NCBI GenBank assembly: GCA_903896015.1
Contig: CAITWF010000043.1
Location: 1-64,000, forward strand
Direction of reading: 5' to 3'
Origin: an uncultured Opitutia bacterium
GTDB taxonomy: Bacteria; Verrucomicrobiota; Verrucomicrobiia; Opitutales; Opitutaceae
DNA: 64,000 nucleotides
Every line of letters starts with the position of its first letter. The first letter of the stretch is position 1. Shown piece after piece: positions 4,508 through 64,000 of this stretch. The notes under the pieces are model-generated. The model did not search any database. It had not been told where the DNA came from and was given only the letters and a program-made list of their open reading frames with translations. The position numbers were made by a program, and so were the translations under genes.

Positions 4508-4510
4508 TGG

Positions 4511-4561
4511 GTAGGTCGGGGTTTATCCCCGACACATTGTCGGGCGTAAAGCCCGACCTAC
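4511..4561. repeat. REP-like palindrome doublet
   Basis: Two short palindromes in opposite orientation: gtcggggtttatccccgac and gtcgggcgtaaagcccgac. The outer arms gtaggtcggg (4511-4520) and cccgacctac (4552-4561) pair with each other. The right end supplies the stop codon of the upstream glycosyltransferase. The left half is identical over 24 bases to positions 21681-21704, so this is a dispersed repeat family. No transposase or RAYT gene is in the window. Confidence 0.8.
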
Positions 4562-5496: not shown

Positions 5497-5578
5497 GCGG
5501 CCTGAGTTGATGCCTCGGTGCGGCGTGCGCGCAAAGAAAAAGCTTCCCGCGTGTCGCGTCGGCCGGTTCGCTGGAGGG

Positions 5579-6289: not shown

Positions 6290-7250
6290 GCGAGGCGAGT
6301 TGGAGGAATTTCCAGATCCAGCCGCTGGGCAGGCGGGCAAGAGGGATGCGGTGGAAGGCCTGCGCGCGCGTGAGCGTGGCGGGGGCGTCTTTGAAGCGGC
6401 TGGCGTAGGAGCGGGCCATGCGCGCGGTGTAAAAACGCGCCAGCCAGCGGCCGAGCCGCGGGCTGTGGGGGAATTCCGCGCGGGCGATTCGCAGGCGGAG
6501 CAAGTGCGCGCGACGGAGCATCTCGGGCCACGCTCGGGCGGTCCACTGGTCGTCGCTCACGCGGTAAAACGCGGCGGTGACAGGCAGCGTCTCGATGCGG
6601 CCAGCGCCGGCGAGCGCATACCAAAATGCGTAGTCGGCGATGCCGCCCTCACGCGGATCGAAGCCGCCGAGTCTGAGCGCGAGTTCGCGCGGAAACGCGA
6701 CGCCCGGAAACGGCGTCATGCTGCTTTTTAGAAACCACTGACGGGCGTAGGCGCGTGGCGGGCGATCGAGCGCGGGTGCGATGAGCGAGGGAGGTTTGTC
6801 GCTCTGCGCACAGCGTACGGCGACGGCGGCGAGCCCGGGTCGCAGCTGCGGCACAATGCTGGCGAGAAACCACGGATAGAGTGTGTCGTCCTCGTGGAGG
6901 ATTGTGACCCAGCGGCCGGTCGCAAGCGCGAGGCAGCGGTTCCAGTTTTGCACGGCGCCGAGGCGGCTGGGGTTGACGTAGAATCGTAGGCACGGCAATG
7001 CGGCCGCTTCGACCACGCGCCGAGTTTCGGCGAGTCCGCCATCGTCGCAGACGAGCACCTCAACGTCATCGCAGCCGCGCTGGGTGGCAATGCTAGCCAG
7101 CGCCTCGCGCAGCAGGTGTGGACGGTTATAGGCGGGAATCGCAATTGTGATGAGCGGCGTGCGTGCGGCGGTGCGGATGGAAGCGGGCGGGGGCGCGGCG
7201 GGTTTGGCGCGCGACGGCGGTGGTTCCAGTAAAGTGAGTGTGGCGGTCAT
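6270..7250 (-). CDS. Family 2 glycosyltransferase
   Basis: A 326-residue GT-A enzyme. After a proline/alanine-rich N-terminal tail comes PLITIAIPAYNRPHLLREAL, then DDVEVLVCDDGG, the conserved ARLGAVQN-like element (SRLGAVQNWNRCLALA) and the catalytic region VTILHEDDTLYPWF. FDPREGGIADYAFWYAL contains the late acidic residues. The enzyme is cytoplasmic, with donor and acceptor unknown. The ATG at 7250 leaves the shortest extension before the domain; an upstream ATG at 7304 is less likely. It is oriented with the following family-9 enzyme, which suggests shared surface-polysaccharide assembly. Confidence 0.85.
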   Translation of the reverse strand: MTATLTLLEPPPSRAKPAAPPPASIRTAARTPLITIAIPAYNRPHLLREALASIATQRGCDDVEVLVCDDGGLAETRRVVEAAALPCLRFYVNPSRLGAVQNWNRCLALATGRWVTILHEDDTLYPWFLASIVPQLRPGLAAVAVRCAQSDKPPSLIAPALDRPPRAYARQWFLKSSMTPFPGVAFPRELALRLGGFDPREGGIADYAFWYALAGAGRIETLPVTAAFYRVSDDQWTARAWPEMLRRAHLLRLRIARAEFPHSPRLGRWLARFYTARMARSYASRFKDAPATLTRAQAFHRIPLARLPSGWIWKFLQLASPTSETR

Positions 7251-7343
7251 GATGGCCGACTCCCACCGCGGCGGCGCTTGTGGCCTGCCCGCGTGTGGCG
7301 TCAAGGAGTGTGACGCGGCCTGCGCCCCAAAGTTCGCAGAAAA

Positions 7344-8390
7344 CTACGCGAGCGCGGCGCGCACAGCGCTCTTGACCTGCGCAGGATCGATGAGACGGAC
7401 GCAAAAATTTTTGTAGGAATCGCCGGGCACGCACTGGCCGGGGGCAACGCAGGCCGTGCAGGGCAAGGGTGGCTGTAGCAACACATGCTCCTCGCCGAGC
7501 GGACGGAACAGCGCGGCGTTTTGCGAACCGTAGAGGGCGATGACGCGCGTGCCGACGGCGGTGGCGACGTGCATCGGGCCGCTGTCGTGGCAAAGGACGG
7601 CGCTCGCTAGCCGGGCGAGCGCGGCGAAGCGGCCGATCGAAAGCGCGTCGGGCAGCTGCAACAGGTGCGTGCGCGTGTGCCGGCGGATCGCGGCAAGCGC
7701 GGCGGCGTCACCTGGCCCGCCGGTGAGCACGACCTGCGCGCCGAGTTCATCCTGCGCGAAGTCGCACACGGCAGCAAAATATTCGGCGGGCCAGAGCCGA
7801 TACGGGCTCCGGGTGCCGGGATGCACGAGGAGGATGTTGGATTTTTGATGTTGGATTTTCGATTCGCCGCCGATGAACCGGCGGACTTCCGCGAGATCGG
7901 CTGGGCGCGGTTCGAGGCGGACGTCGCGCGTGGCGATCGGCACGCCGAGCGGTTCGAGCGCGCGCAAATAATACTCGGTGATCGGGCGCGTTTCGTGCAG
8001 CTCCGTCGGATCGTGAACGACGTGAGTGTAGGCGCCGCGCAACTTGAGACGGTGGCCGCCGTGATGTAGGCCCACGCGCACCGCCGCGCCCGAAAAACGG
8101 GCGATGGCGGCGGTCTTTTCGGTGTTGTCGAAATCGAGGACGTGCGTGAAGCGCGCGCGCCGCAGGCCGCGCAAAAATCCCGGCCAGGCGGCGAGGCCCG
8201 CGGGCAGCAGCAACGGCTGCACGGCGTCAGGGTTGAGCGCGAGGACGCCGGCATAGGCGGGCTCGGTGAGCACCGAGAGCGGCGCGGCCGGCCAGTGCAG
8301 CCGCAGATTGCGGAGCAGGGAGCCGAGCAGCACGATGTCGCCGAGGTAGCGGCGGCGGATAACAAGGATGTGCGGCACGGCGGCGGACAT
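7344..8390 (-). CDS. Family 9 glycosyltransferase (heptosyltransferase-like)
   Basis: A 348-residue GT-B enzyme of the ADP-heptose:LPS heptosyltransferase family. It begins ILVIRRRYLGDIVLLGSLL, the classic R-x-x-x-x-GD-x-(V/L) start, and contains LLVHPGTRSPYRLWP and, near the donor site, CHDSGPMHVATAVGTRVIALYGS, the strongest family signature. Between the two Rossmann domains, residues SKIQHQKSNI are encoded by a 14-nt tandem repeat (7833-7864) that looks inserted. The ATG at 8390 fits the family N-terminus. It probably adds a sugar to the inner LPS core or another cell-surface glycan. Confidence 0.9.
   Translation of the reverse strand: MSAAVPHILVIRRRYLGDIVLLGSLLRNLRLHWPAAPLSVLTEPAYAGVLALNPDAVQPLLLPAGLAAWPGFLRGLRRARFTHVLDFDNTEKTAAIARFSGAAVRVGLHHGGHRLKLRGAYTHVVHDPTELHETRPITEYYLRALEPLGVPIATRDVRLEPRPADLAEVRRFIGGESKIQHQKSNILLVHPGTRSPYRLWPAEYFAAVCDFAQDELGAQVVLTGGPGDAAALAAIRRHTRTHLLQLPDALSIGRFAALARLASAVLCHDSGPMHVATAVGTRVIALYGSQNAALFRPLGEEHVLLQPPLPCTACVAPGQCVPGDSYKNFCVRLIDPAQVKSAVRAALA
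7833..7864. repeat. In-frame heptamer-type tandem repeat in a glycosyltransferase gene
   Basis: Two 14-nt units (gatgttggattttt and gatgttggattttc) plus a partial gatt. Each unit is made of two 7-mers starting with gat. This resembles the short tandemly repeated heptamers known from cyanobacteria and other bacteria. It sits inside the family-9 glycosyltransferase, between its two domains, and keeps the reading frame. Confidence 0.7.
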
Positions 8391-11906: not shown

Positions 11907-13652
11907 TCAGACCGCGCTCATCTGCTGCCGCTCGTAAAGCGAGCGGTAGAGAGGATTCGCTTCGAAGAGCTCCGCATGCGTGCCCGTGGCCGCAATGCGG
12001 CCATGATCGAAGACGAGGATTTTCGTCGCGTCGCGGATCGTCGAGAAACGGTGCGCGATGATGAAAACGGTTTTTCCGACAACGAGTTTCTTGAGCGCGA
12101 GTTGGATCGCGGCCTCACTATCACTGTCGAGCGCGCTGGTGGCCTCATCGAGGATGAGGATCGGGGCCTTGCGGAGAAACGCCCGCGCGAGGGCGATGCG
12201 CTGCTTCTGCCCGCCGGAGACGAGCGCACCGCGCTCGCCGACGATCGTGTCGTAGCCGTGTGGAAGCTTTTGGATGAAGTCGTGTGCGAATGCGTCGCGC
12301 GCCGCCTGCTCGACTTCGGCGCGCGACGCGTCGGCGCGGCCGAGTTGGAGGTTCGCGTAGATGGTGTCGTTGAAGAGCACGGGGTCCTGCGAGACCACGG
12401 CGATGTTGCGCCGGAGATCGCCGAGGCGGAGGGCACGCACGTCATGGCCGTCGATTGTCACGCGGCCGGAGGCGACCTCGTAGAAACGCGGGACGAGATT
12501 GGCGAAGGTGGTTTTGCCCGCGCCGCTCGGGCCGACGAGCGCGCAGACGGTGCCCGCGGGAATCGCCGCGCTTACGTCGCGCAGCACGGGCTCGTTTTGC
12601 TTGTAGGCAAACGAAACCGCTTCAAACGCTACGTCGCCCCGCAGCCGCCCGACCGCCACAGGCTGCGCTGGATCGGCGATCGTGACGGGCTCATGCAGCA
12701 CGACCTCGATCCGATCGAGCGCCGCGGCGCCGCGCTTGAGCTCGTTGTTGAGCGCGCCAACTTTCTTGATCGGCTCGTAGCACATGTAGAGTGCGAGGAT
12801 GACGGAGATGAACGTCTCCAGCTGCACGCCGCGACCGTAGGCGAAAATGAGCGTGCCCGCGATGCCGACGGCGGAAAGCACTTCGATCGCCGGCGTCAGC
12901 GCCTGCGCATACTTGGCGATCTTCATCTGCGACGTGACGAGCTCACGGCACGCGGAGGCGAAACGTGAAGTCTCGCGCTCCTCAAGGCCGAACGCCCGCA
13001 CTTCTCGGGCGGCGGAAAGATTTTCCGAGAAGTGGCTCGTGACATCACCGAGCTGTGCCTGCATCCGCGCGGCGCGTTTCATGACCTTGCGTCCGACGTA
13101 GCGGACCGGAAACACCGTGAGCGGCACGGCGCCGAGCGTGATGAGCACCATCAGCACGCCTTGCTGTGTGAACGCCTGCCACATGAGAAAGCCGAGCGCG
13201 CCGAGGAGCTGCATCGGCTGCTTTACGCCGTCATTGGCGAGCAGCGTGAGCGTGAACTGGAGCTGACTGGTGTCGGCGAGCCCGCGCGAGAGCAGATCGC
13301 CGCTGGACTTGCTCTGGAGAAACGAAAGCGGGAGCACCTGTAGCTTGCGAAAGTAATCGAGCCGGATGGCCTCCAGGATGCGCACGCCGGCGAGCTGTGT
13401 GTAGTAGCTGTTGAGGTAGCCGCTGATCGCGCGCAGCAGAAACGCAAGCGGGATCGCGCCGGCGATCAGGGCGATGGTGCCGAGGGGCAGGGCGCCGTTG
13501 GTCCGGTCAAAAATCGGCGGAAAGACATACTTGATCAGGGAGGGCAGCGCCACGCCGCTGGTGGCTCCGAACAGCAGCGCATAAAAAATCGCCGCCACGA
13601 TTGGGCCGCGAACGGTGCGGAAGTATTTGAAGTAGGGACGGAGACGGCGCAT
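11907..13652 (-). CDS. ABC exporter, MsbA-like lipid/multidrug transporter
   Basis: A 581-residue half-transporter with fused membrane and ATPase domains. Six predicted membrane helices occupy roughly 15-300, with the cytoplasmic coupling region around ARMQAQLGDVTSHFSENLSA. The ATPase domain has Walker A GPSGAGKT (374-381), the Q-loop SQDPVLFND, signature VSGGQKQRIALARA (from 478), Walker B ILILDEATSALD and H-loop IIAHRFSTI. As in MsbA it would act as a homodimer, flipping lipid A-core or another lipid across the inner membrane. Its place next to glycan genes supports a lipid-linked cargo, but this is inference. It follows the peptide permease genes with a 51-bp gap. Confidence 0.9.
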   Translation of the reverse strand: MRRLRPYFKYFRTVRGPIVAAIFYALLFGATSGVALPSLIKYVFPPIFDRTNGALPLGTIALIAGAIPLAFLLRAISGYLNSYYTQLAGVRILEAIRLDYFRKLQVLPLSFLQSKSSGDLLSRGLADTSQLQFTLTLLANDGVKQPMQLLGALGFLMWQAFTQQGVLMVLITLGAVPLTVFPVRYVGRKVMKRAARMQAQLGDVTSHFSENLSAAREVRAFGLEERETSRFASACRELVTSQMKIAKYAQALTPAIEVLSAVGIAGTLIFAYGRGVQLETFISVILALYMCYEPIKKVGALNNELKRGAAALDRIEVVLHEPVTIADPAQPVAVGRLRGDVAFEAVSFAYKQNEPVLRDVSAAIPAGTVCALVGPSGAGKTTFANLVPRFYEVASGRVTIDGHDVRALRLGDLRRNIAVVSQDPVLFNDTIYANLQLGRADASRAEVEQAARDAFAHDFIQKLPHGYDTIVGERGALVSGGQKQRIALARAFLRKAPILILDEATSALDSDSEAAIQLALKKLVVGKTVFIIAHRFSTIRDATKILVFDHGRIAATGTHAELFEANPLYRSLYERQQMSAV

Positions 13653-54337: not shown

Positions 54338-54742
54338 CTAGGCCGCGAACACAGCGGCCATTTTGGCGACGAAGGCCGGCGGCGGGCGGGTGGGCTTGCC
54401 TTTGGTGTCACAGAACGCGTGGGCGCTTTGGCCGGTGGCGAGGAGTTCTTCGCCGCGAAATACCTCGTAGTCGATGCGGATGCGCAGGAGCGGCTTCTCG
54501 CGGATGGTGGCGACGACCGTCAGTGTGTCGTCGTAGAGGGCGGGCCGGATAAATTTCGCCCCGACTTCGAGCACAGGGATACGATAGCCGTCGGCCTCAA
54601 GTTGGCGGTAGGGGAAGCCCTGCTCGCGGAGGAGTTGGGTGCGGGCGACTTCAAACCACGGAAGATAGTTCGCGTGGTAAACGATCCCCATCATGTCGGT
54701 CTCGGCGTAACGGACCGTAACCTGCGCGCGCGACTGAATCAT
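54338..54742 (-). CDS. Acyl-CoA/acyl-ACP thioesterase, YbgC/4-HBT hotdog family
   Basis: A 134-residue single-hotdog thioesterase. VRYAETDMMGIVYHANYLPW contains the catalytic Asp16 and the Y-x-N of the family, followed by FEVARTQLLREQGFPYRQLE. It hydrolyses acyl-CoA or acyl-ACP. The ATG at 54742 overlaps the stop of the upstream glycosyltransferase as ATGA. Because it is divergent from an ACP-dehydratase/ketosynthase operon, it may release or edit acyl chains for that pathway; this is inference, as YbgC-type enzymes are also general housekeeping. Confidence 0.85.
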   Translation of the reverse strand: MIQSRAQVTVRYAETDMMGIVYHANYLPWFEVARTQLLREQGFPYRQLEADGYRIPVLEVGAKFIRPALYDDTLTVVATIREKPLLRIRIDYEVFRGEELLATGQSAHAFCDTKGKPTRPPPAFVAKMAAVFAA

Positions 54743-55917
54743 GCGACGTCGACGGCGCCGCTGCGGAAGAGCGCCTCGGCGGATTCCTTCCAGCAGTTCC
54801 GCGCGGCCCAGGCGCGCCCGGCGGTGCCGAGCCGATGGCGCAGCGGCGCATCGTGAATGAGTTTCTCGAAGGCGGCGGCAAGTTGCGCGGGGCGATGCGG
54901 CGGCACGAGCAGGCCCGTCTGCCCGTCGATCACGGCTTCGGAAACGCCGCCGACATCGTGCGCTACGACCGGTAGGCTGTGCGCCGCGGCTTCGAGGTAA
55001 ACCAGCCCGAAGCCCTCGATGCTGTGACCGTGATTGATGCTGGTCATCGCGAAGATATCGGCGCGATCGTAGAGGGCGGAGAGTTCGTCGTCGGGGATGT
55101 TGCCAAAAAACTTCACCGCGAGATCGGGGCATTCGGCGGCGGACGTGCGGAGGGTGGTTTCGTAGTTGGATTTGCTCTGGCCGCCGACGATCCAGTATTC
55201 GAGTCGGGCGCGGACGTCGGGGGCGAGCGACTGCAACGCCTGGAGGGTGAGAAGCTGGCCCTTGCGCGGGTGGAGCCTGCCAACGGTGAGGACGATAATC
55301 TTGTCTTTCGTTTTTGCTGGCTTGGGGGGCACCACCGCGAAGTCGGAACGGAGTGCGCCAGGGGTGAGGAAAATTTTCTCGGACGCCTCAGGAAAGTGGC
55401 TGAGGAGCAGTTCCTGCGTGTAGTTGCTGAGCGTGCTGATGCGCGTCGCGTGCCCGATGAGGCGACGCGCGAGCATCCGGCGGAGTGGGCTATCGGAGAA
55501 TTTCAGGATTTCCGACCCGTGAAAGGTCAGCACCAACCGGCGAGGCCGAAAGGCCTGGAAGAACTGCAGCAACATCATCGTCATCATCGGCCCCGGCTCA
55601 GGGAGATAGACGGTGGCGTGCCGAAGGTCGCGGCGGTGGCGGATGAGTTCCCGGGCGAGGCGGACTTGGCAGAGCAGGTCGTGCGAGCCTTTGAGCGGCA
55701 GGCGGCGAAGTCGAAACGGCCAGTCGGTCTTTTCCGCGGCCGGCGAGGCGGATTGCGCCCAAACCTCGACGTTATAGCCGAGATCGGCAGTCGCGCGGGC
55801 GATTTCCTCCGTAAACGTCGCGATTCCTCCCCGCACGGGGTAAAATTCGTGGGTGATCAGGAAGATCGGTGGTGAAGCTGACGACAGGGAGGAGGCGCTC
55901 ATGCGCGAAAGAGACAT
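54739..55917 (-). CDS. Family 4 glycosyltransferase
   Basis: A 392-residue GT-B enzyme. The N-terminus IFLITHEFYPVRGGIATFTE is the acceptor-side glycine loop of GT4; the C-terminal half has IIVLTVGRLHPRKGQLLTLQ and the donor-binding E-x7-E region in SINHGHSIEGFGLVYLEAAA, followed by SLPVVAHDVGGVSEAVIDGQ. Cytoplasmic, retaining, donor unknown. The start is uncertain: ATG at 55917 is used, 55902 is equally plausible and neither has a clear ribosome-binding site. It is coupled to the thioesterase gene and divergent from the lipid-type operon that follows. Confidence 0.87.
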   Translation of the reverse strand: MSLSRMSASSLSSASPPIFLITHEFYPVRGGIATFTEEIARATADLGYNVEVWAQSASPAAEKTDWPFRLRRLPLKGSHDLLCQVRLARELIRHRRDLRHATVYLPEPGPMMTMMLLQFFQAFRPRRLVLTFHGSEILKFSDSPLRRMLARRLIGHATRISTLSNYTQELLLSHFPEASEKIFLTPGALRSDFAVVPPKPAKTKDKIIVLTVGRLHPRKGQLLTLQALQSLAPDVRARLEYWIVGGQSKSNYETTLRTSAAECPDLAVKFFGNIPDDELSALYDRADIFAMTSINHGHSIEGFGLVYLEAAAHSLPVVAHDVGGVSEAVIDGQTGLLVPPHRPAQLAAAFEKLIHDAPLRHRLGTAGRAWAARNCWKESAEALFRSGAVDVA

Positions 55918-56137
55918 CGAGTGGCGCGCATCGGCGCTTCGAGGATGACGCCCGTTAACGTGGCAGGTAACACGTTTCTGGCAAGCCCGCTCCACCGCAG
56001 CGGATTGTGAAAATTCCTGAAACTCCGGAACCTATCTACGCGTCATCGTTCCATCTGCCGGCCTCGATCTGCCGTCGACCTGGGCCCGAACTTCAAGGTT
56101 TACTTTGGCCGGCCCCGTAACATACATCCCGCAAACC

Positions 56138-57118
56138 ATGCCAGACGCCGCTCATCCCAGTTCGGGCACCTCCAAGCCGTTTCCGACGGCACCCAAGCCG
56201 TTTGCGCCCGAGGACGAGTCGGCCCTGCGTGAGGCGTTGAAACGCTGCTCGCCTTCCACTTTCGAGGCAGCGGTGCAGTTCCGCAAGACGGGCAACGCCG
56301 AACACGTCCCTGCTGTCGTCATCGGCGTCATTGAGCGCTTCGTCGAGCCCGATCTGCGCATTAAACTGAAGGACGCCGACGATGACCTTCGCCTGATCGA
56401 GGATCTTGGGATCGATTCGCTGACGATGATGGAAATCGTCATTCTGGTGGAGGAAGTCCTGACGATGACCATCAACAACGACGAGCTGCGCAACCTGCGC
56501 ACCGTCGGCGACGTGAAAACCTTTATCGACTGCAAGATTCGCGGCCTGCCCCTCCCGAAGCCGACGAAGTTCATCCCGATCGAGCACATCGGTGCAGTCA
56601 TGCCGATCCAGCCGCCGTTCCTCTTTCTAAACGAAGCCTCCGTCAGCTCCACCGCGGCCAACGGCAAATACAAGATTACGGGCCAGGAATTTTTCCTTCA
56701 GGGCCACTTCAAGGATAACCCCGTGATGCCCGCTTCGATCATGCTGGAGGCGCTCGGCCAGCTCGCGGTGCTCTACCTGCTCGAAGGCGCGCCCACCGAG
56801 CCCGGCAAGATGGTCAGCTCCCAGATGATCTTTTTCACGGGGTGCGAAGGCGTCCGGGCGCACCGGATCTGCAAGCCTGGTGATATTCTCACCCTTTCGA
56901 TCAAGCCGAAGCGCATGAAGATGCCGCTGGCCACGTTTGAGGGGGCCATCCGCGTCGGGCAGGAAAAGGCTGTCATCGTGGAAGAGATCACGCTCACGTT
57001 CGGTTTCGTCGATGCGGCCAACCAGCCCGTGCCGATCAATGGCACGGAGCACGGCGGGTCGGTCAACGGTGCCGAAGCCTCCGCTGCCACGCCGCCGCTG
57101 CGCGTGGCGAACGGCTGA
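56138..57118 (+). CDS. Acyl carrier protein fused to a FabZ/FabA-like dehydratase
   Basis: A 326-residue two-domain protein. Residues about 55-135 form an acyl carrier protein: LRLIEDLGIDSLTMMEIVIL holds the phosphopantetheine Ser94. After a short basic linker, residues about 150-310 form a hotdog domain of the 3-hydroxyacyl-ACP dehydratase type: IQPPFLFLNEASVS, FFLQGHFKDNPVMPASIMLE with the catalytic His190, and EALGQLAVLYLLEG with Glu204. So the carrier and the dehydratase act on the same chain. It opens an operon with a ketosynthase and a ketoreductase, giving a small fatty-acid- or polyketide-like set. A terminator follows 32 bp after the stop, so the rest may be partly separately expressed. 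Confidence 0.88.
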   Translation: MPDAAHPSSGTSKPFPTAPKPFAPEDESALREALKRCSPSTFEAAVQFRKTGNAEHVPAVVIGVIERFVEPDLRIKLKDADDDLRLIEDLGIDSLTMMEIVILVEEVLTMTINNDELRNLRTVGDVKTFIDCKIRGLPLPKPTKFIPIEHIGAVMPIQPPFLFLNEASVSSTAANGKYKITGQEFFLQGHFKDNPVMPASIMLEALGQLAVLYLLEGAPTEPGKMVSSQMIFFTGCEGVRAHRICKPGDILTLSIKPKRMKMPLATFEGAIRVGQEKAVIVEEITLTFGFVDAANQPVPINGTEHGGSVNGAEASAATPPLRVANG

Positions 57119-57150
57119 TCGCCGCTGCTCCACGCCCCTCGTGATTTTTC

Positions 57151-57178
57151 GGCGGCCGATTTCGGCCGCCCTTTTTTT
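57151..57178 (+). terminator. Terminator-like hairpin after the ACP-dehydratase gene
   Basis: An 8- to 9-bp stem, ggcggccga with tcggccgcc (57151-57159 and 57162-57170), followed by ctttttttgc. It lies inside the putative operon, so expression of the ACP-dehydratase may exceed that of the genes behind it. Confidence 0.8.
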
Positions 57179-57290
57179 GCGTGCATTCCTCTCCTCCCGC
57201 GTTGACCGGTAGTGGGTAACCGCCTTCACTTTGTCTTCTTATCTTGCGCACGTCCGCTTTGCGGCTGTGTCCAACGCCGCCCTTCCACGC

Positions 57291-58556
57291 ATGCCTCGAG
57301 TTTTTATCACCGGCCTCGGCTTCGTCACCAGCATCGGCAACGACGCCGCGACTGTAACGCGAAACCTTCGGGAGCTGCGCCATGGCTTCGAGCTCTACCC
57401 ACCGTTTCAAAAGTCCGACATCCCGTGTAAAGTGGTCGGCACGATCAAGGACTTCACGGCCGACTCGACCGATCAGGAGGACTGGACGTTTCCGACGCGC
57501 TACAAAATCAAACGCGAACTGCTGCGCTCGATGGCGCCCAACGGCCTTTTTGCCCACTGCGCGATGATTCAGGCGATCGAGGATGCTAAGCTCACCGAGC
57601 CCGATATTTCGAATCCTGACACCGGCCTCTACGCCGCCTCCGGCGGTTCACCGATGCTCACGCACTACCACCACGAGCGGCTGAACAAACTCGGCGTGAT
57701 GCGCTGCTCACCCCTCGGAATCGTTTCCGCAATCGTCGGCACGCTGAACTTCAACCTAGTCGCCGCGTTCAAGATTTTTGGGTCATCGTGCGGCTTCTCG
57801 TCGGCGTGCGCGTCGTCCGCACACGGGTTGGGCTACGCCTTCGACGATCTGTCGCTCGGGCGGCAAAAGCGGATGTTTGTCGTTGGTGCCGAAGACGGCA
57901 ACGTCGACGCCATCCTGCCTTTCGCCGGCATGCGCACGCTTTCGCTCCAAAATGATCCGAATCTCGCTTCGCGGCCGTTCGACGCCGCCCGCGATGGTTT
58001 CGTTGGGACGGGCGGCGCGACGGTGCTCGTGCTGGAAACGGAAGACGAAGTCGCGCGCCGTGGCGTGAGACCTTACGCGGAACTCCTCGGTTGGGGCCAG
58101 GCGTCCGATGGTTGGAACGTCGCGATCTCGCACCCCGAGGGCAGCGGCTCCGCGGCGGCGATGACGCGCGGATTGCGCGCTGCAGGCGTCGCGCCCGAGC
58201 AGGTCGACTACGTCAATGCCCATGCGACCTCGACGCTTATCGGCGATATCTCCGAGGCGCGCGCGCTCCGGAGTGTGTTTAAGGATTCCGCCGCACGCCC
58301 GCTCGTCAGCAGCACGAAGGCGCTCACCGGCCACGGGCTTTCGCTCGCGGGAGCGATGGAGACCGGTTTCTGTGCGCTCGCGTTGCGCGACGGTTTCATT
58401 CCCGGTAACGCGCACCTCACGAAGCTCGAACCCGAATGCGCCGGCCTCAATATTCCGCTGAAGACCCTCGAGCAACCGGCCAACATCGTCGTGAAAAATA
58501 GCAGCGGGTTTGGCGGCGCCAACGTCGCCCTCGTGCTCCAGCGCACCGCGGCCTAG
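57291..58556 (+). CDS. Beta-ketoacyl-ACP synthase, KAS II-like
   Basis: A 421-residue condensing enzyme. VFITGLGFVTSIGNDAATVT is the family start. The catalytic triad is visible: Cys173 in SSACASSAHGLGYAF, His311 in VNAHATSTLIGDI (HAT instead of the usual HGT), and His348 in STKALTGHGLSLAG with Lys343. It should elongate an ACP-bound acyl chain, presumably on the ACP domain encoded just upstream. The ATG at 57291 starts the conserved domain; TTG 57231 is less likely. The next gene, a reductase, begins 9 bp later. Confidence 0.92.
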   Translation: MPRVFITGLGFVTSIGNDAATVTRNLRELRHGFELYPPFQKSDIPCKVVGTIKDFTADSTDQEDWTFPTRYKIKRELLRSMAPNGLFAHCAMIQAIEDAKLTEPDISNPDTGLYAASGGSPMLTHYHHERLNKLGVMRCSPLGIVSAIVGTLNFNLVAAFKIFGSSCGFSSACASSAHGLGYAFDDLSLGRQKRMFVVGAEDGNVDAILPFAGMRTLSLQNDPNLASRPFDAARDGFVGTGGATVLVLETEDEVARRGVRPYAELLGWGQASDGWNVAISHPEGSGSAAAMTRGLRAAGVAPEQVDYVNAHATSTLIGDISEARALRSVFKDSAARPLVSSTKALTGHGLSLAGAMETGFCALALRDGFIPGNAHLTKLEPECAGLNIPLKTLEQPANIVVKNSSGFGGANVALVLQRTAA

Positions 58557-58565
58557 CCCAACATC

Positions 58566-59402
58566 GTGCCCGCCGCCCGCGTCTCCGATCTCTACCGCGC
58601 CGCGCTCGTCACGGGTGCGAGCACCGGACTCGGTCGCGCCTTCGCGGAGATGCTGCTCGCCGACGGGGTCCGCGTTTGGGGCACCTCGCGCGACCCGGTG
58701 CGTCTCGACTCGCTCACGGCATCGAAGCCCGAGCTGTTCACGCCGGTTGCGCTTGATCTGCGTAACGGCGCGCACGCCGAGGCCGTGTTTCGTGAAGCCG
58801 ACGCCGAAGCCGGCGGCTTCGATCTCGTGATCAACAATGCAGGCTACGGTGTCTTCGCTGAGTTCACTGCCGCGGAATTCTCCGTGTGGCAGGAGCAACT
58901 TGAGGTGATGCTCGTCAACACCGCGCGGCTCTCGCATGCCGCGCTGCGCGGCATGCGAGAGCGAAATCACGGCGCACTCGTCAACATTTCCTCCCTTGCC
59001 GCGGAATTTCCGCTGCCGTTTCAGAGCGCTTACAACATCGCGAAGGCCGGCCTCACCGCGCTCAACGAAAGCCTCTTGCTTGAGACCGCCGGCACTGGCG
59101 TCGTGATCCTCGATGTGCGGCCGGGCGACTATCGCACCGAATTTGAAGGCGCAGTGTTGCGGCCGGTCGGGAGCGATTCGCCGCGGCTGGCGCGCGCGTG
59201 GGCGGCTTTCGCGGCGATGATGAAAAGCGGCCCGCCGCCCGCGCACGCGGCCGCGGCGCTGCGGCACGCGCTGCTGCGCCAATGGAGTGGCACGGTCCGC
59301 ACGGGCCGTTTCTTTCAGGCGATCGTCGCGCCCTTTATCTCGCGTTTCGGATCGCTGGCCTTGCGACGGCGCATTCAGTCGAAGTATTTTCACGTCGACT
59401 AA
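58566..59402 (+). CDS. Short-chain dehydrogenase/reductase
   Basis: A 278-residue classical SDR. ALVTGASTGLGRAFAEMLLA binds the cofactor; LVINNAGYGVF, LVNISSLAAEFP with the catalytic Ser and SAYNIAKAGLTALNESLLLE with Tyr156 and Lys160 complete the active site. Following a ketosynthase and an ACP-dehydratase, the likely role is reduction of a beta-keto acyl-ACP; a 3-ketosphinganine-type substrate is also possible given the alpha-oxoamine synthase gene nearby. Start is a GTG at 58566, 9 bp after the ketosynthase stop. A C-terminal extension (RFGSLALRRRIQSKYFHVD) is longer than in FabG. Confidence 0.88.
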   Translation: MPAARVSDLYRAALVTGASTGLGRAFAEMLLADGVRVWGTSRDPVRLDSLTASKPELFTPVALDLRNGAHAEAVFREADAEAGGFDLVINNAGYGVFAEFTAAEFSVWQEQLEVMLVNTARLSHAALRGMRERNHGALVNISSLAAEFPLPFQSAYNIAKAGLTALNESLLLETAGTGVVILDVRPGDYRTEFEGAVLRPVGSDSPRLARAWAAFAAMMKSGPPPAHAAAALRHALLRQWSGTVRTGRFFQAIVAPFISRFGSLALRRRIQSKYFHVD

Positions 59403-59408
59403 CCGCGC

Positions 59409-60638
59409 ATGTCCCGAATCCGCATCCTCGTTCTCACGTCCAGCACCGGCGGCGGCCACGATGCGCGCGCGGAGGCTTTTGCCGAGTGGTGCTTTCAGCT
59501 CTATCGTCACGATGTGGACGTGCGGATTGAGCAAATGCTCGAGAAATCCTCCGCCGTAAACCGCACCGGCGTGAATCTCTATAACCGCATCCAGCGCAGC
59601 GCGCCGTGGGTGCACAAGCTTTTCTACGCTGTCATCGAGGTGCTCAGCTGGCTCAACAGCAGCGACGTCACCTTCGGCTCGGGCTACTATTTGAAAGTGC
59701 TGAAGGACTATCAGCCGCATCTCATCTTCAGTGTGCACGACTGCCTTAACCGCGGTTACTTCCAACTCGCGCGCAAGACCCTCGGCCCCGACCAAGTCCG
59801 CTGCGCGACCTACTGCGGCGAGTTTTCCGGCGGCTGGGGCTACTCGCGCAACTGGATCGAACCCTCGGTGGATCTTTATTTTTCGCGCACGCCAACGGCG
59901 AGCGACTACGCGATTAAGTGCGGAATCGCACCGGAAAAGGCACGCGTGCGCGGCTATCTCATGCGACCGCGGCAGCTCCTCGAAGTTCTCACGCCGGTCG
60001 ATCGCCGTGTGTTTCAGGCAAAACGCCTCGGCCTCGATCCGGAGAAATTCACCGTCTTCCTTGCGACTGGCGGCAATGGCGCGAACAACCACTTCGATCT
60101 CCTGCCCGCGCTCGTGGCCCACGCCGCGCGCGTCCAGGCGATCGTGATCTGCGGGCGCAACAAGGAGACCTACAACGAACTCATGCACTGGCGCGCGCTG
60201 CATCCCGAGTTCGACTGCCACATTGAGGGCTACTCTGACATCGTGCACCTCTACATGCAGGCGAGCGACGTGATCGTTACGCGTGGCGGCACCACGACCT
60301 GTGCGAAGGCGCTGCACTTCAGGTGTCCGATCATTTTCAACGCGTTTGGCGGCATCATGCCGCAGGAGGAGCTCACGTGGAAATTTTTCCGCAACGGCGC
60401 CGCCTCGAAGAAAATCGAATCGGCGGGCGACTTCGCCCACCTGATTGACGCGTGGATGGCCAATCCTGCCCTCTACGAAGCCGTCCGCGTGAATTTCCTC
60501 AAGCTCCGCTACGAGGAGGATCCGACGATCCTGATCGATGAACTCGTTGAACTCGCGAATGAGGCCGCGGGAAGCCGTCCGTTGCGCCGCCAGCCGTTTC
60601 CGCCGCCGACGAACGGCCACGCCACGCCGGCGAAGTGA
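59409..60638 (+). CDS. MGDG synthase-like (GT28) glycosyltransferase
   Basis: A 409-residue GT-B glycosyltransferase. IRILVLTSSTGGGHDARAEA is the MGDG-synthase-type N-terminus that binds a lipid acceptor; HLIFSVHDCLNRGYF and RCATYCGEFSGGWGYSRNWI are the acceptor-side motifs. The donor side carries VFLATGGNGANNHFDLLPAL and SDVIVTRGGTTTCAKALHFR. Such enzymes add sugar to diacylglycerol or to other membrane lipids. In this operon it may glycosylate the product of the ACP/ketosynthase pathway. The stop overlaps the next gene as GTGA. Confidence 0.88.
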   Translation: MSRIRILVLTSSTGGGHDARAEAFAEWCFQLYRHDVDVRIEQMLEKSSAVNRTGVNLYNRIQRSAPWVHKLFYAVIEVLSWLNSSDVTFGSGYYLKVLKDYQPHLIFSVHDCLNRGYFQLARKTLGPDQVRCATYCGEFSGGWGYSRNWIEPSVDLYFSRTPTASDYAIKCGIAPEKARVRGYLMRPRQLLEVLTPVDRRVFQAKRLGLDPEKFTVFLATGGNGANNHFDLLPALVAHAARVQAIVICGRNKETYNELMHWRALHPEFDCHIEGYSDIVHLYMQASDVIVTRGGTTTCAKALHFRCPIIFNAFGGIMPQEELTWKFFRNGAASKKIESAGDFAHLIDAWMANPALYEAVRVNFLKLRYEEDPTILIDELVELANEAAGSRPLRRQPFPPPTNGHATPAK

Positions 60639-61900
60639 CACGTCTTCCGCGTTGCCCGGCGCCGCGCGAGTCCCACACTGGTGCGATCTTGTCGAAGCCC
60701 GCGCCCGTCATCGCTTACCTCTTCACCACGTTTCCCAAGAACACGGAGACGTTTCTCCAGCGCGAAGTAATCGCTATGCGCGCGCAGGGCGCAGAGCTGC
60801 GGATCTATTCGCTCTGGGGCGGTGGCGGCTCGTTTCGCGGACTTCCCGTCGCGCGCTTCAACAAATGGCGGCTGCTCACCTTGCTCTGGCTCATCCCGGC
60901 CGAATCGTGGCGGCGCCCTGAGGTGCTGAAACAGTTGCTCAAGGGGTTGCTCACGCGCCGCGCGCCGTCGTGGCTGAATTTCTGGGAAAACATGCTTGGC
61001 GCCGGCTTCGCGTGTGTGGAGCTGGGCGCATTTCGCAAAAACCCGCCCGCGTTGATTCACGCGGCGTGGGGCGGCGGACCGGCGACCGCGGCATGGCTGT
61101 TTTGGCGCGTGGATGGCCACAAATTCAGCGCGGCCGCGCATGCCTACGACATCTACGAGCATGGCGGCGATTGGTGGCTCAACGACAAGCTGCAACACGC
61201 CGCATTCATTCATACCTCGACGGAGATGGCGCGGCGCGCGTTAATCGCGCGCGGCCTCGCGGCCGAGAAAATTTTTTGCATCCGCCGCGGCCTCGATCGG
61301 TTGCCGGCCTTGAAGCCGTTGCGCGCCTCGCGCGCTCCGCTGCACCTCGTCTGCGTCGCGCGGCTCGTGGAAAAAAAGGGCCTCGATCACCAGCTGCGGA
61401 TTTACGCGGCGCTCCGCGCGTCCGGTGTGGCGTTTGATGCGCGGATCGTGGGCGACGGGCCGCTGCGGTTTGAGTTGGAGAAACTTGCCGGCCATCTCGG
61501 CATCGCGGCGGATGTCACGTTCACCGGCCATCTCGCGCAGCACGAGGTCTGGAATCAACTCGCATGGGCCGACGTGCTGCTGCACACGGGCGTCGTCGCC
61601 CCGAGTGGCGATCGCGACGGGTTGCCCAACGTGATCCCCGAGGCGCTGTCCGTCGGGGTGCTTGTGATCACCTCGGCCGCCGCGGCCACGACCGAAGCGG
61701 TGACGCATGGCGTGACGGGCCTGATCGCCGCAGTCGATGCCGCACAGGACTGGGTGAGCGCACTGCGCCGACTCGGCTCGGACGACGCGTTCGCGGAAAA
61801 ACTCCGGGCGGCCGGCCGGACTTGGGTCGAGGAAAACTACGACGCGCACAAGAACGCCGCGCGTCTCCGCGCGCACATGGATCGCGCGCTCGCGCCATGA
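60635..61900 (+). CDS. Family 4 glycosyltransferase
   Basis: A 421-residue GT-B enzyme. Acceptor half: IAYLFTTFPKNTETFLQREV, then AAHAYDIYEHGGDWWLNDKL. Donor half: LHLVCVARLVEKKGLDHQLR, ARIVGDGPLRFELEKLAGHL and, at the nucleotide-sugar site, SGDRDGLPNVIPEALSVGVL. It resembles enzymes that extend exopolysaccharide or glycolipid glycans. A GTG at 60635 overlaps the preceding stop; a TTG at 60689 would start nearer the domain. The stop overlaps the next gene as ATGA. Confidence 0.87.
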   Translation: MTRLPRCPAPRESHTGAILSKPAPVIAYLFTTFPKNTETFLQREVIAMRAQGAELRIYSLWGGGGSFRGLPVARFNKWRLLTLLWLIPAESWRRPEVLKQLLKGLLTRRAPSWLNFWENMLGAGFACVELGAFRKNPPALIHAAWGGGPATAAWLFWRVDGHKFSAAAHAYDIYEHGGDWWLNDKLQHAAFIHTSTEMARRALIARGLAAEKIFCIRRGLDRLPALKPLRASRAPLHLVCVARLVEKKGLDHQLRIYAALRASGVAFDARIVGDGPLRFELEKLAGHLGIAADVTFTGHLAQHEVWNQLAWADVLLHTGVVAPSGDRDGLPNVIPEALSVGVLVITSAAAATTEAVTHGVTGLIAAVDAAQDWVSALRRLGSDDAFAEKLRAAGRTWVEENYDAHKNAARLRAHMDRALAP

Positions 61901-62913
61901 TCTACTTTGATGTCACCAAAGCGGGCGCGTCCGGGCATCGCTCAGGCCTGATGCGCGTGAGCGCGCGGCTGGCACAGGGCCTGGGTGCGGTCTCTTCCGA
62001 GGTGCGTTGGCCAGAGTGGAAACGCATCGTGACGCCGAACGACTGGTTTCTCACGGGAGAACTTTTTTCCGACGAGGAGCGGCCGGGATTTTCGGAGTTT
62101 CTCGCCGTGCCGCCATGCCGGCTCGCCGCGATCTTTCACGATGCGATTCCCCTGAAGGTTCCGCACGTCACGTGGCCGCAGAGCGTCGCGCGCCATCCGG
62201 GTTACATGAAACTGCTCGCGCGTTTTGATCGGGTGTGGGCGGTGTCCAAGGCGAGCCGCGCAGAACTGATTGGCTTTTGGAAATGGCAGGGCCTTGAGAA
62301 AACACCGCCGGTCGAGGTGCTGGCGCTTGGCGCTGATTTCTCCGGCGCGCCGCGCGTGCTCGCGCGAGCGGCGGCGTCGAAACCGAGTTTGCTGTGCGTG
62401 GGCATCGTCGAGCCGCGCAAGAACCAGGCGTTCCTGCTCGACGTGTGCGAAGAGTTGTGGAGCGGTGGGCTCGCGTTCGATCTGCACGTCGTCGGCCGGG
62501 TGAATCCGCACTTCGGCGTGCCAATCGCCGCTCGCATCAAGGCACTCGCGAAACGATTTCCCGGGCTGCATTTTCACGAGGCGGCAGACGATACGACGCT
62601 CGCGCGACTCTACGCTACCGCTCGCGCGACGGTGCTTCCCACGATTGCGGAGGGCTGCGGGCTGCCGTTGCTGGAGTCGCTGTGGATGGGCGTGCCGTGC
62701 GTTTGCAGCGATTTGCCCGTGCTGCATGAAAATGCGGAGGGCGGCGGTTGCGTGCCCGTCGCGCTCAACGATCGCGCGGCGTGGCGCAACGCGCTGCGGC
62801 GCGTGCTGACGGATGGTGCATGGCACGCGCGGCTCACACAGGAGGCGATGACGCGGGCGTTGCCGACGTGGTATGGCGCAGCCGAGACGATCCGGCGCGC
62901 GCTGGGCGCGTAA
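61897..62913 (+). CDS. Family 4 glycosyltransferase
   Basis: A 338-residue GT-B enzyme. YFDVTKAGASGHRSGLMRVS starts the protein; AIFHDAIPLKVPHVTWPQSV and FDRVWAVSKASRAELIGFWK are the acceptor-side marks, and LLCVGIVEPRKNQAFLLDVC, LYATARATVLPTIAEGCGLP and LLESLWMGVPCVCSDLPVLH the donor side with the E-x7-E motif. It is the last gene of the operon; its ATG overlaps the preceding stop. It ends 6 bp from the convergent alpha-oxoamine synthase. Confidence 0.87.
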   Translation: MIYFDVTKAGASGHRSGLMRVSARLAQGLGAVSSEVRWPEWKRIVTPNDWFLTGELFSDEERPGFSEFLAVPPCRLAAIFHDAIPLKVPHVTWPQSVARHPGYMKLLARFDRVWAVSKASRAELIGFWKWQGLEKTPPVEVLALGADFSGAPRVLARAAASKPSLLCVGIVEPRKNQAFLLDVCEELWSGGLAFDLHVVGRVNPHFGVPIAARIKALAKRFPGLHFHEAADDTTLARLYATARATVLPTIAEGCGLPLLESLWMGVPCVCSDLPVLHENAEGGGCVPVALNDRAAWRNALRRVLTDGAWHARLTQEAMTRALPTWYGAAETIRRALGA

Positions 62914-62919
62914 CGGCCT

Positions 62920-64000
62920 TCAGAGTTTCTTCATCGCGTAGGCAAGGGCCTCGGCGATTTTTTCGAGCTGCTCGTCGGTGTGCATCGCCGAGATCGCGGT
63001 GCGGATGAGATCCTTGCCGGCGGGGACTGCGGGCGCGATCGACATGACGGTGAAGACACCGCGATCGAGAAGCGTTTTCCAGAACGGGTAGACGCGCTCC
63101 TTCGAGCCGAGCACGATCGGGACGGCGGGCGTTTCGCTTTCCCAGGTGTCGAGGCCGAGATTCTTGAGAATGGCTTTGTATTTCCGCGTGTTGGCCCAGA
63201 GACGCTCAAGGTGCTGCGGCTCGGTCTGCATGACTTCAAGCGCGGCCATCGACGCGGCGGCCTGCGCGGGGCTGAGCGCGGCGGAGAACGTCGTCTGCTT
63301 CGAGTGCGAGCGCAGATAGTCGATCACCTCCTGCGAGGCGGCGACGAAGCCGCCGATACTTGCGAGTGATTTCGACATGCTGCCGCAGATGACATCGACC
63401 TTGTCGTTCAGGCCGAAGCTGTCGGCCGTGCCGCGGCCTTGGCGACCGAGCACGCCGAAGCCGTGCGCGTCATCCAGCACCGAGAAGAGGCCGTTTTCCT
63501 CGGCGATCTCCGCGATTTCCGGGAGACGGGCGATGTGGCCTTCCATCGAGTAGACACCCTCGACCACAAGCATTTTCGGGGCGTCGGTGCCGGTTTGCGC
63601 GATGACGGTGCGAAGATCGTCGGGGTTGTTGTGCGAGAAGCGCTCGACCGTCGCCATTGACAGACGGATGCCGTCCCAGAGGCACGAATGGATGTTTTTG
63701 TCGGCAAAGATCACATCGCCCTTTTGGGCGAATGACGCGACGGCCGACATGCACGAGAGGTAGCCGGCGGCGTGGACGTGGCAGGCCTCGCGGCCGAGGA
63801 AGGCGGCGAGTTTCTCCTCAAGCTCAAGATGAAATCGGCGCGACCCGTTGGAGATGCGTGCACCGTTCGTGCTCGTGCCCCACTTGAGCAGGGCCGCGCG
63901 TGCGGCTTCCACAACCTTGGGGTGGAACGACAGGCCAAGATAGTCATTGCTCGACAGCATGATGACGTCGCGTCCGTGGAGCTGCACACACGTGCCCTTC
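62920..64000 (-). CDS. Alpha-oxoamine synthase (serine palmitoyltransferase-like), 5' end cut by the window
   Basis: PLP enzyme of the SPT/KBL/BioF/ALAS family, condensing an amino acid with an acyl thioester. The reading frame continues to the window edge without a start, so about 30-50 N-terminal residues lie outside. Visible marks: DVIMLSSNDYLGLSFHPKVV, GTSTNGARISNGSRRFHLEL, AGYLSCMSAVASFAQKGDVI, SVLDDAHGFGVLGRQGRGTA, and the PLP-lysine region VICGSMSKSLASIGGFVAAS. The SKSLASIGG form is closer to serine palmitoyltransferase and related sphingolipid-type enzymes than to KBL or BioF. It is convergent with the glycosyltransferase operon, so joint function is inference. Confidence 0.9.
   Translation of the reverse strand, partial: KGTCVQLHGRDVIMLSSNDYLGLSFHPKVVEAARAALLKWGTSTNGARISNGSRRFHLELEEKLAAFLGREACHVHAAGYLSCMSAVASFAQKGDVIFADKNIHSCLWDGIRLSMATVERFSHNNPDDLRTVIAQTGTDAPKMLVVEGVYSMEGHIARLPEIAEIAEENGLFSVLDDAHGFGVLGRQGRGTADSFGLNDKVDVICGSMSKSLASIGGFVAASQEVIDYLRSHSKQTTFSAALSPAQAAASMAALEVMQTEPQHLERLWANTRKYKAILKNLGLDTWESETPAVPIVLGSKERVYPFWKTLLDRGVFTVMSIAPAVPAGKDLIRTAISAMHTDEQLEKIAEALAYAMKKL

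Follow-up and report, generated by a model that had tools for sequence, protein, structure and literature searches.

A candidate glycosphingolipid locus that includes a putative type II acyl-chain builder in an Opitutaceae bacterium

Introduction

The 64,000-nucleotide stretch of DNA analysed here (the window), from an uncultured member of the Opitutaceae, ends in nine genes that combine acyl-chain synthesis, glycosyl transfer and a serine-palmitoyltransferase (SPT)-like enzyme, and the question is which lipid such a locus would make. An earlier note proposed a dedicated pathway for a glycosylated long-chain lipid or a polyene. The literature we found on sphingolipids in Verrucomicrobiota amounts to one study, which in the parts available offers no more than SPT-like genes from 22 metagenome-assembled genomes (PMC11334938). 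We found little on Opitutaceae lipids or on SPT together with a ketosynthase, and no description of an ACPDH-KAS-GT28-SPT arrangement in the open-licence literature. The results below lead us to favour, as the probable answer, a route to glycosphingolipids that includes a dedicated type II (discrete-enzyme) system for building acyl chains.

Results

Organization of the locus

Pfam and NCBIfam profiles recovered all nine genes with the domains assigned to them in the earlier note, including four glycosyltransferases, one of which is of the MGDG-synthase type (Table 1). The order is TE-GTa on the minus strand, ACPDH-KAS-SDR-GT28-GTb-GTc on the plus strand and SPT on the minus strand. SPT, which extends past the window into the rest of the 164,283-bp contig, lies outside the plus-strand operon because it is on the minus strand and convergent with GTc, 6 bp away. 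The tight coupling claimed from KAS onward was borne out for KAS-SDR (9 bp), SDR-GT28 (6 bp) and GTb-GTc (−4 bp), but the 4-bp overlap of GT28 and GTb exists only if GTb starts at the GTG codon; otherwise 50 bp separate GT28 from the TTG codon. Neither an acyl ligase nor an acyltransferase was identified among the nine locus genes and the 10 of the 46 other called window genes that were profiled, and to that extent the earlier statement that the window holds none is upheld. Sugar genes seem abundant beyond SPT, as read from the sequence.

Table 1. Positions and assignments of the features of the locus.
Feature	Position	Strand	Assignment	Basis
TE	54338..54742	-	YbgC/FadM-type 4HBT thioesterase; membership doubtful	Pfam/NCBIfam
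GTa	54739..55902	-	GT4 glycosyltransferase	Pfam/NCBIfam
ACPDH	56138..57118	+	helical N-terminal region, acyl carrier domain and FabZ-like hot-dog dehydratase in a single protein	
Hairpin	57151..57170	+	terminator-like; between ACPDH and KAS	
KAS	57291..58556	+	dedicated beta-ketoacyl-ACP synthase, Cys-His-His	Pfam/NCBIfam, trees
SDR	58566..59402	+	classical SDR; probable 3-ketosphinganine (ketoceramide) reductase	
GT28	59409..60638	+	MGDG-synthase/UgtP-like lipid glycosyltransferase; probable sphingolipid glycosyltransferase	
GTb	60635..61900	+	GT4 glycosyltransferase; start GTG 60635 or TTG 60689	
GTc	61897..62913	+	GT4 glycosyltransferase	Pfam/NCBIfam
SPT	62920..64000, on to contig position 64116	-	serine-palmitoyltransferase-like alpha-oxoamine synthase	

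The 172-bp gap between ACPDH and KAS contains a strong terminator-like hairpin with eight G-C pairs and a T7 tail. It headed the list of terminator-like sites, of which the 10 kb held 14, compared with 10.8 in shuffled sequences. This hairpin, which separates ACPDH from KAS, was counted against the glycosphingolipid reading of the locus.

Gene order in relatives

For the synteny counts, 80 of 297 KAS loci were kept, and each denominator is the number of relatives with enough flanking sequence. ACPDH preceded KAS in 72 of 74 loci and GT28 followed it in 60 of 63; GTa was found before KAS in 61 of 67 and SDR after it in 57 of 75, being absent beside KAS in the other 18, and GTb and GTc were retained in 40 of 56 and 36 of 52 loci, respectively. 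SPT was within 9 kb of KAS in 29 of 49 loci and farther away in 20. The synteny around KAS exceeds chance. In some distant families GTa adjoins ACPDH or SDR, and in G163 (family f37) and G092 (f38) SPT and ACPDH-KAS share a strand, with SPT immediately upstream and adjoining ACPDH; G235 (f35) has the same arrangement, but its SPT is in three pieces. Four genomes of genera g16 and g18 carry SDR-GT28-GTb-GTc-SPT as one locus, apart from TE-GTa-ACPDH-KAS. Among cultured bacteria, Ereboglobus (locus L066) carries ACPDH-KAS-SDR-GT28, and SPT is present in genome G069, whose KAS is identical. TE was present in 58 of 65 loci; since it is tied to an AroK-QueG neighbourhood and occurred in only 6 of 40 further loci, all six in the home family, it may not be part of the pathway.

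Identity of the ketosynthase

KAS has the full Cys-His-His set that had been ascribed to it (ACASS, NAHATST and KALTGH), but the label "KAS II-like" proved loose: the NCBIfam scores for FabF (311 bits) and FabB (300 bits) were both below cut-off, which for the housekeeping FabF model TIGR03150 is 493.75, and the closest solved relatives are KAS I enzymes. In phylogenetic trees, KAS and its counterparts formed a clade apart from FabF (support 100/100), on the FabB side and on a long branch of its own. The first tree held the window and 35 loci with no FabB row; in the second (the window and 19 loci, with E. coli FabB added and the very long rows C61 and C113 of the same genome omitted) the clade persisted, and it shifted to the FabB side once FabB was added.

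The home genome has separate FabF-like genes on C11 and C80, and another FabZ-type gene, within a 448-aa frame, on C71. Every protein of the locus comes from a large housekeeping-type superfamily, as would be the case if these were ordinary fatty-acid and lipopolysaccharide (LPS) genes; however, the KAS trees and the separate FabF and FabZ genes led us to reject housekeeping fatty-acid synthesis, the long branch of KAS and the patchy distribution described below also speak against such a role, and we give it practically no credence. The earlier note had named scattering in relatives, or grouping with housekeeping genes, as evidence against its proposal of a dedicated pathway for a glycosylated long-chain lipid. 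We observed neither, because the genes are syntenic in relatives and KAS falls outside housekeeping FabF, and that part of the proposal stands.

The closest KAS paralogues in the genome are on C7 and C24 (56% each), and the C7 copy belongs to an aryl-polyene-like set comprising ACP, KAS, ACP, KS-like protein, acyltransferase and AMP-binding enzyme. Aryl-polyene clusters carry a ketosynthase with a second KS partner, an AMP ligase and an acyltransferase. With these clusters the locus shares the gene types ACP, dehydratase, ketosynthase, thioesterase and SDR, which together with the C7 paralogue would fit an aryl-polyene or other polyene pigment. Its nine genes, however, include a single active KAS; a second KS, an AMP ligase and an acyltransferase are missing from them and are on C7, and the locus has SPT and GT28 instead; given the strong tie to SPT as well, the polyene option was abandoned as extremely improbable.

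Identity of the SPT-like enzyme

The best solved relative of the SPT-like protein is an SPT (321.8 bits), compared with 265.3 bits for the best AONS/KBL. A tree was built from the window, 5 KAS loci and 22 SPT-clade genomes (of 50 besides the home genome); in this midpoint-rooted tree, which has long branches, the 28 rows formed one clade (100/100), which lay beside characterised SPTs and apart from the BioF and KBL rows. By this placement the PLP enzyme is a member of the SPT clade; serine is its putative amino-acid substrate. Alpha-oxoamine synthases are close relatives of one another, and a cysteate acyltransferase also matches (200.2 bits), so the use of alanine, glycine or cysteate, giving a deoxysphingolipid or a sulfonolipid, has to be considered; but the far higher score of the nearest SPT structure and the grouping of the clade with SPTs make this quite improbable.

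Co-inheritance across the class

Among 286 genomes of the class, SPT and ACPDH occurred together in 48, SPT alone in 3, ACPDH alone in 6 and neither in 229. The corresponding counts were 50, 1, 5 and 230 for SPT and GT28, and 52, 2, 3 and 229 for ACPDH and GT28. Of the 51 SPT genomes, 47 had SDR (E≤1e-30), as did 11 of the remaining 235; the four SPT genomes in which it was not found among the best few candidates scored per genome are G042, G061, G064 and G154. The search scored the best few candidates throughout, and absences are therefore no proof. SPT was counted at ≥400 bits, so that G182 (a contig-edge fragment) and G235 (three pieces) were scored without SPT; G246, G122 and G213, in which ACP and dehydratase are separate genes, were scored without the fusion. 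The Fisher tests of co-occurrence ignore shared ancestry.

The distribution is patchy: SPT, ACPDH and GT28 are all missing in 2 of 30 home-family genomes, and they turn up together in 1 of 13 genomes of f14 and 1 of 10 of f37, families that otherwise lack them. SPT and ACPDH were on the same contig in 29 of the 48 genomes that have both, and within 20 kb in 25 of these 29; SPT and GT28 were within 20 kb in 28 of 50, in one case (G160) by way of a second GT28 copy. SPT, ACPDH, GT28 and SDR track one another genome-wide even when unlinked. The earlier note had regarded SPT as the gene that fitted least with the others, a view that the survey reverses, since SPT is at the centre and ACPDH, GT28 and SDR track its clade. 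This tracking also argues against the alternative that the product is a glycoglycerolipid or an LPS-type lipid bearing special acyl chains, with SPT as a mere neighbour in a polysaccharide region; the resemblance of GT28 to MGDG synthase and UgtP and the apparently sugar-gene-rich region past SPT favour that alternative, yet we regard it as very unlikely.

Several genomes depart from the pattern. In genus g23 of family f5 (G122 and G213, with the separate genes, and G169), ACP, dehydratase and KAS are kept without SPT, GT28 and SDR, and the chain builder is therefore able to serve something else. G281 (f7) has KAS and a dehydratase without SPT, GT28 and SDR, and G113 (f4), a genome rated 100% complete, has ACPDH, KAS, GT28 and SDR with no SPT match.

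The carrier-dehydratase fusion

Comparison with L009 indicates that ACPDH probably starts at the ATG given in Table 1. The carrier serine (Ser105) and the dehydratase residues His201 and Glu215, numbered in the 337-aa ORF beginning at 56105, are invariant across 44 sequences. An AlphaFold2 model had a mean pLDDT of 76.1, with values below 50 in the stretch 200-203 that includes His201, and its hot-dog portion matched FabZ structures in Foldseek. The model confirmed the FabZ-like domain and nothing further.

SDR and the ceramide-synthase step

In all seven genomes of family f15 examined, SDR homologues (36-43% identity) lie 1.9-3.2 kb from a homologue of bacterial ceramide synthase (bCerS), and an SPT-like gene is also present in five of these seven stretches. 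Since SDR homologues are near ceramide-synthase genes in another family, SDR is probably a 3-ketosphinganine (ketoceramide) reductase. An acyl-ACP ketoreductase is disfavoured by these bCerS-linked homologues and by the separate SDR-GT28-GTb-GTc-SPT locus.

A bCerS/YghO-type ceramide synthase had no match in the home genome at E≤1e-8, and no other N-acyltransferase was identified. bCerS matched in 4 of the 51 genomes that carry this SPT clade, compared with all 15 genomes that have other SPT-like genes passing E≤1e-90, a set outside which the f15 genes (~35% identity) fall. bCerS was counted for 54 of 59 matching genomes, the five omitted matches being weaker than 1e-20 and none of them in an SPT-clade genome. 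We also considered a 264-aa SCP2-like protein that adjoins GT28 as the universal missing step; it was rejected, being present in only 11 of 286 genomes and absent here.

Discussion

In the glycosphingolipid pathway that we favour, KAS would elongate acyl groups carried by the ACP domain within ACPDH, the FabZ-like part of that protein would dehydrate them, and housekeeping FabG and FabI would complete or skip the reductions. The acyl-ACP would then be passed to SPT and condensed with serine to a 3-keto-sphingoid base, the ketone of which SDR would reduce. N-acylation, for which no gene was identified, would also have to take place. GT28 would put the first sugar on the lipid, and GTa, GTb and GTc would lengthen the head group.

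KAS and ACPDH might instead build the N-acyl or another chain of a glycosphingolipid, with SPT drawing on ordinary acyl-CoA or acyl-AcpP. The co-occurrence fits this equally well, and the SPT-ACPDH-KAS order is silent on which chain is built; but no N-acyltransferase gene lies beside ACPDH-KAS in the locus, and the known special ACP beside spt feeds SPT itself, according to the available parts of the report (PMC9386255). We therefore think this assignment unlikely, though it deserves some weight. If ACPDH does supply SPT, a more speculative suggestion, to which we would give only a small chance, is that the fusion of dehydratase and carrier lets SPT directly capture the resulting trans-2-enoyl-ACP, whose condensation with serine would place a C4-C5 double bond in sphingosine-type (4E-unsaturated) bases with no desaturase. 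Enoyl capture, if true, would be a third, type II way to feed SPT, and the sphingoid double bond of the mammalian type could then arise independently of oxygen.

Published lipid data were counted against the glycosphingolipid reading. In the parts available of one paper, the polar lipids tabulated for two Opitutaceae species, one of Rariglobus and one of Nibricoccus, are PE, PG and DPG, with no sphingolipid, other listed genera are given as "nd", and ceramide is unmentioned in the text for a sister-family isolate analysed by UHPLC-HRMS (PMC13274419); these data were taken by species, without regard to locus carriage.

Two systems in which SPT has a dedicated supply are known to us from partly available reports. 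In the rhodobacterial locus acpR, aasR, spt, epi, aca (Caulobacter, E. coli BL21), SPT takes its acyl group from a special ACP that an acyl-ACP synthetase loads with ready-made fatty acids (PMC9386255, which also names AcpXL). Both loci link their SPT to a dedicated ACP and include a reductase, in our case a candidate. No AasR-type synthetase was identified among the nine genes of our locus. Here, by contrast, there is an ACP-dehydratase fusion with its own KAS; the YghO/aca ceramide synthase is missing from the home genome, the reductase candidate is a classical SDR, and GT28 accompanies SPT in 50 of 51 genomes. In Pseudomonas fluorescens MYb115, the polyketide synthase (PKS) of SgaA-SgaB, with the SDR SgaC, supplies SPT for sphinganine (PMC12134224). 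As we propose for our locus, that system feeds SPT through a dedicated chain-building enzyme, and it has a KDSR-like SDR as proposed reductase, but the enzyme is one iterative type I PKS and the products are phosphoglycerol sphingolipids, as far as that report is available. The domain calls for our locus gave no such PKS beside SPT, only a discrete ACP-DH protein and a single-domain KAS, together with glycosyltransferases.

This Verrucomicrobiota group probably carries a gene set for sugar-decorated sphingolipids with its own ACP, ketosynthase and dehydratase as possible builders of the lipid chain, a finding which points to glycosphingolipids in the phylum and to a discrete-enzyme chain builder attached to sphingolipid synthesis. 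Two sphingolipid systems would then exist in one class, SPT with YghO-type bCerS and SPT with ACPDH-KAS-GT28; since they are mostly not found together, ACPDH plus GT28 could be used to recognise the second in genomes.

The rhizobial very-long-chain acyl set acpXL-fabZ-fabF-lpxXL resembles our locus in devoting an ACP, a dehydratase and ketosynthases to one special lipid; it differs in serving lipid A through an acyltransferase and in having no SPT.

Layout of the locus

The locus (see table) lies on a contig of 164,283 bp, whose first 64 kb make up the window. The gap between the genes for the carrier-dehydratase fusion (ACPDH) and the ketosynthase (KAS) holds a strong terminator-like hairpin. 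Cys-His-His is retained in KAS, and the carrier Ser105 and dehydratase His201 and Glu215 of ACPDH were invariant in an alignment of 44 ACPDH proteins. The AlphaFold2 model of ACPDH (mean pLDDT 76.1) showed helices through residue 146 and a hot-dog-like part thereafter, and the best 50 Foldseek rows obtained with it were all FabZ structures. Judged from sequence, the genes past SPT, the serine-palmitoyltransferase-like gene, seem to encode more glycosyltransferases, membrane proteins and nucleotide-sugar enzymes. On the left side of the window, a lipooligosaccharide region is suggested by glycosyltransferase-like genes together with a GT9 heptosyltransferase and an ABC exporter whose layout is MsbA-like.

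Positions of the locus genes and of other features (L, fetched loci; C, home-genome contigs)
Feature	Position	Strand and placement
TE, YbgC-type thioesterase	from 54338	minus
GTa, GT4		minus, beside TE
ACPDH, ACP-FabZ fusion		plus
KAS, ketosynthase		plus, after ACPDH
SDR		plus, after KAS
GT28, MGDG-type glycosyltransferase		plus, after SDR
GTb and GTc, both GT4		plus, after GT28
SPT-like gene	to 64116, past window edge	convergent with GTc
Suggested lipooligosaccharide region	3725-8390, 11907-13652	
Second ACP and KAS pair, C24	L091:7972-14609	
Aryl-polyene-like cluster, C7	L092:3354-14657	
Stand-alone ACP, C110	L093:8674-9120	
Exporter loci beside SPT	L163:1559-7160, L185:1457-7508, L122:1411-6663, L180:2382-6004	
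GT28-SCP2-like-HemL-like loci	L113:2882-4905, L169:8403-10523, L165:12250-14276	

Relationships of SPT, KAS, GT28 and SDR

The best solved relative of the locus SPT was itself an SPT (8guh/3a2b, 321.8 bits; 3a2b is presumably the Sphingobacterium enzyme), followed by AONS/KBL (265.3 bits) and the SPT 2jgt (237.6), which we take to be that of Sphingomonas. In a tree of 43 rows, all 28 rows of the locus SPT clade formed one group (100/100), which grouped with SPTs from E. coli BL21 and nine further Verrucomicrobiota and with 2jgt and 3a2b, and the three BioF/KBL-type rows lay outside the SPT group (100/97; long branches, midpoint root). At E<=1e-15 the home genome yielded a single further alpha-oxoamine synthase. 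In the first KAS tree, the KAS rows and the home paralogues on C7 and C24 formed a clade (100/99) separate from the FabF-like proteins of the home genome and from E. coli FabF; after E. coli FabB was added, the KAS clade (100/100) fell on the FabB side. The only solved relatives of GT28 at E<=0.01 were MGDG synthase 1 and a processive diacylglycerol glucosyltransferase.

By profile, SDR is a generic SDR, and the KDSR model (97.3 bits) was one of many that matched. An SDR homologue lay 1.9-3.2 kb from a homologue of the bCerS/YghO-type ceramide synthase in all seven genomes examined of family f15, and an SPT-like gene was present in 5/7 of the fetched f15 stretches, one of which (partly profiled) carries consecutive fatty-acid hydroxylase, SPT-like, CDP-alcohol transferase and GNAT genes. 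Because its homologues lie near bCerS and SPT-like genes in f15, this SDR lineage, we argue, probably acts on a keto-sphingoid base or ketoceramide.

Conservation and linkage

From 297 confirmed loci found with the KAS query we took 80, from Opitutaceae (by inference, the home family f1 of the genome survey) and relatives; only loci with enough flank served as denominators. ACPDH preceded KAS in 72/74 loci, GTa in 61/67 and TE in 58/65, while SDR followed in 57/75, GT28 in 60/63, GTb in 40/56 and GTc in 36/52; SPT was found <=9 kb from KAS in 29/49.

Of 48 genomes with both SPT and ACPDH, 25 have them <=20 kb apart, 4 on the same contig but farther and 19 on separate contigs; the <=20 kb pairs number 28/50 for SPT-GT28 and 36/52 for ACPDH-GT28. 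In G092 (f38) and G163 (f37), ACPDH-KAS directly follows SPT and GT28-SDR runs on the opposite strand; G235 (f35) repeats this order with a broken SPT. Four home-family genomes of genera g16/g18 have two sites, GTa-ACPDH-KAS (with TE) versus SDR-GT28-GTb-GTc-SPT. Given this linkage and these gene orders, including the split set, SDR and GT28 travel with SPT, and the whole set is retained in the genome even if unlinked.

Co-inheritance across the class

Among 286 genomes of the class, searched with cut-offs of >=400 bits for the SPT clade and E<=1e-30 for GT28 and SDR, 54 carried the full ACPDH fusion, 51 the SPT clade and 55 GT28. Three genomes had SPT but no full ACPDH (G061, G160, G246) and six the reverse (G034, G045, G113, G169, G182, G235); SPT and GT28 occurred together in 50, SPT without GT28 in G061, and GT28 without SPT in five (G034, G113, G182, G187, G235). 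Among these exceptions are several incomplete genomes or broken genes: completeness is rated at 85% for G034 and 74% for G045, SPT is a fragment at a contig edge in G182 and in three pieces in G235, and the ACP and dehydratase are split in G246. The real exceptions belong to genus g23 of f5 (G122, G169, G213), with ACP, dehydratase and KAS but without SPT clade, GT28 and SDR; G281 (f7) resembles them, and in G113 (f4) SPT is the sole missing part. Fisher values for co-occurrence ignore shared ancestry, but the pattern is patchy, SPT, ACPDH and GT28 all being present in 1/13 f14 and 1/10 f37 genomes, with none in the rest, and all three missing from 2/30 home-family genomes.

SDR was detected in 58 genomes, including 47 of the 51 with SPT (all except G042, G061, G064 and G154); the others were G034, G113, G187, G232 and seven of f15. 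Both G042 and G064, of the home family, have a YghO homologue, compared with only 2/26 of the remaining SPT-positive home-family genomes, possibly a replacement or chance.

YghO/bCerS was found neither in the home genome (G000) nor in 47/51 SPT-clade genomes, and four genomes have both the locus SPT clade and a YghO homologue. bCerS was present in 15/15 genomes with other SPT-like genes (E<=1e-90, ~40% identity), in 8 of them <=2.2 kb from that gene. Two systems thus seem to be present in the class: a canonical SPT-bCerS one and an ACPDH-KAS-GT28-type SPT one.

Proposed mechanism and precedents

Gene presence, active residues, phylogeny and co-inheritance are the observed base of the mechanism that we propose. 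KAS and the fused dehydratase would build or elongate an acyl-ACP, from which SPT would accept the acyl chain; SDR would then carry out a reduction, and GT28 and the GT4 enzymes would perform glycosylation. One study describes Rhodobacteria SPTs as favouring an acyl chain carried on a special ACP (PMC9386255), and another a Pseudomonas SPT, SgaB, supplied by a type I PKS, with a KDSR-like SDR proposed as the following step (PMC12134224). Our search of the open-licence literature found no account of an SPT accompanied by discrete ACP-dehydratase and ketosynthase proteins, and we file the locus as a variant of bacterial sphingolipid biosynthesis outside the AcpR/AasR and SgaAB systems. Counting against the sphingolipid reading are lipid data in PMC13274419, from strains that may or may not carry the locus: in its table, two Opitutaceae species have PE, PG and DPG as polar lipids and the remaining genera are marked 'nd', and its passage on an HRMS-analysed sister-family isolate does not mention ceramide. 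SPT-like genes are noted in 22 Verrucomicrobiota MAGs from the Black Sea (PMC11334938).

Other clusters

The second ACP and KAS pair, on C24, whose KAS is 56% identical to the locus KAS, neighbours alpha/beta hydrolase-like, HAD-like, class III aminotransferase and FemAB-like GNAT genes and a pair of small membrane proteins that are EamA-like, one of them profiled; it is a putative lipid or metabolite cluster. The aryl-polyene-like cluster on C7 comprises methyltransferase-like, ACP, KAS, ACP, KS-like and acyltransferase genes, with GT2-like, exporter-like and AMP-binding enzyme genes (some read from sequence only). On C110, the stand-alone ACP, 60% identical to the ACPDH carrier part, adjoins a methyltransferase-like gene.

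A full or partial tripartite system (TolC-type outer-membrane proteins, MFP, LolCE/MacB-like permease, LolD-like ATPase) adjoins SPT in several families and is a candidate sphingolipid exporter; similar permease or ATPase genes occur within f15 loci that have bCerS and SDR. In some genomes, genes for an SCP2-like protein and for a class III aminotransferase of HemL-like type come after GT28; the former family occurs in 11/286 genomes, all 11 with GT28.
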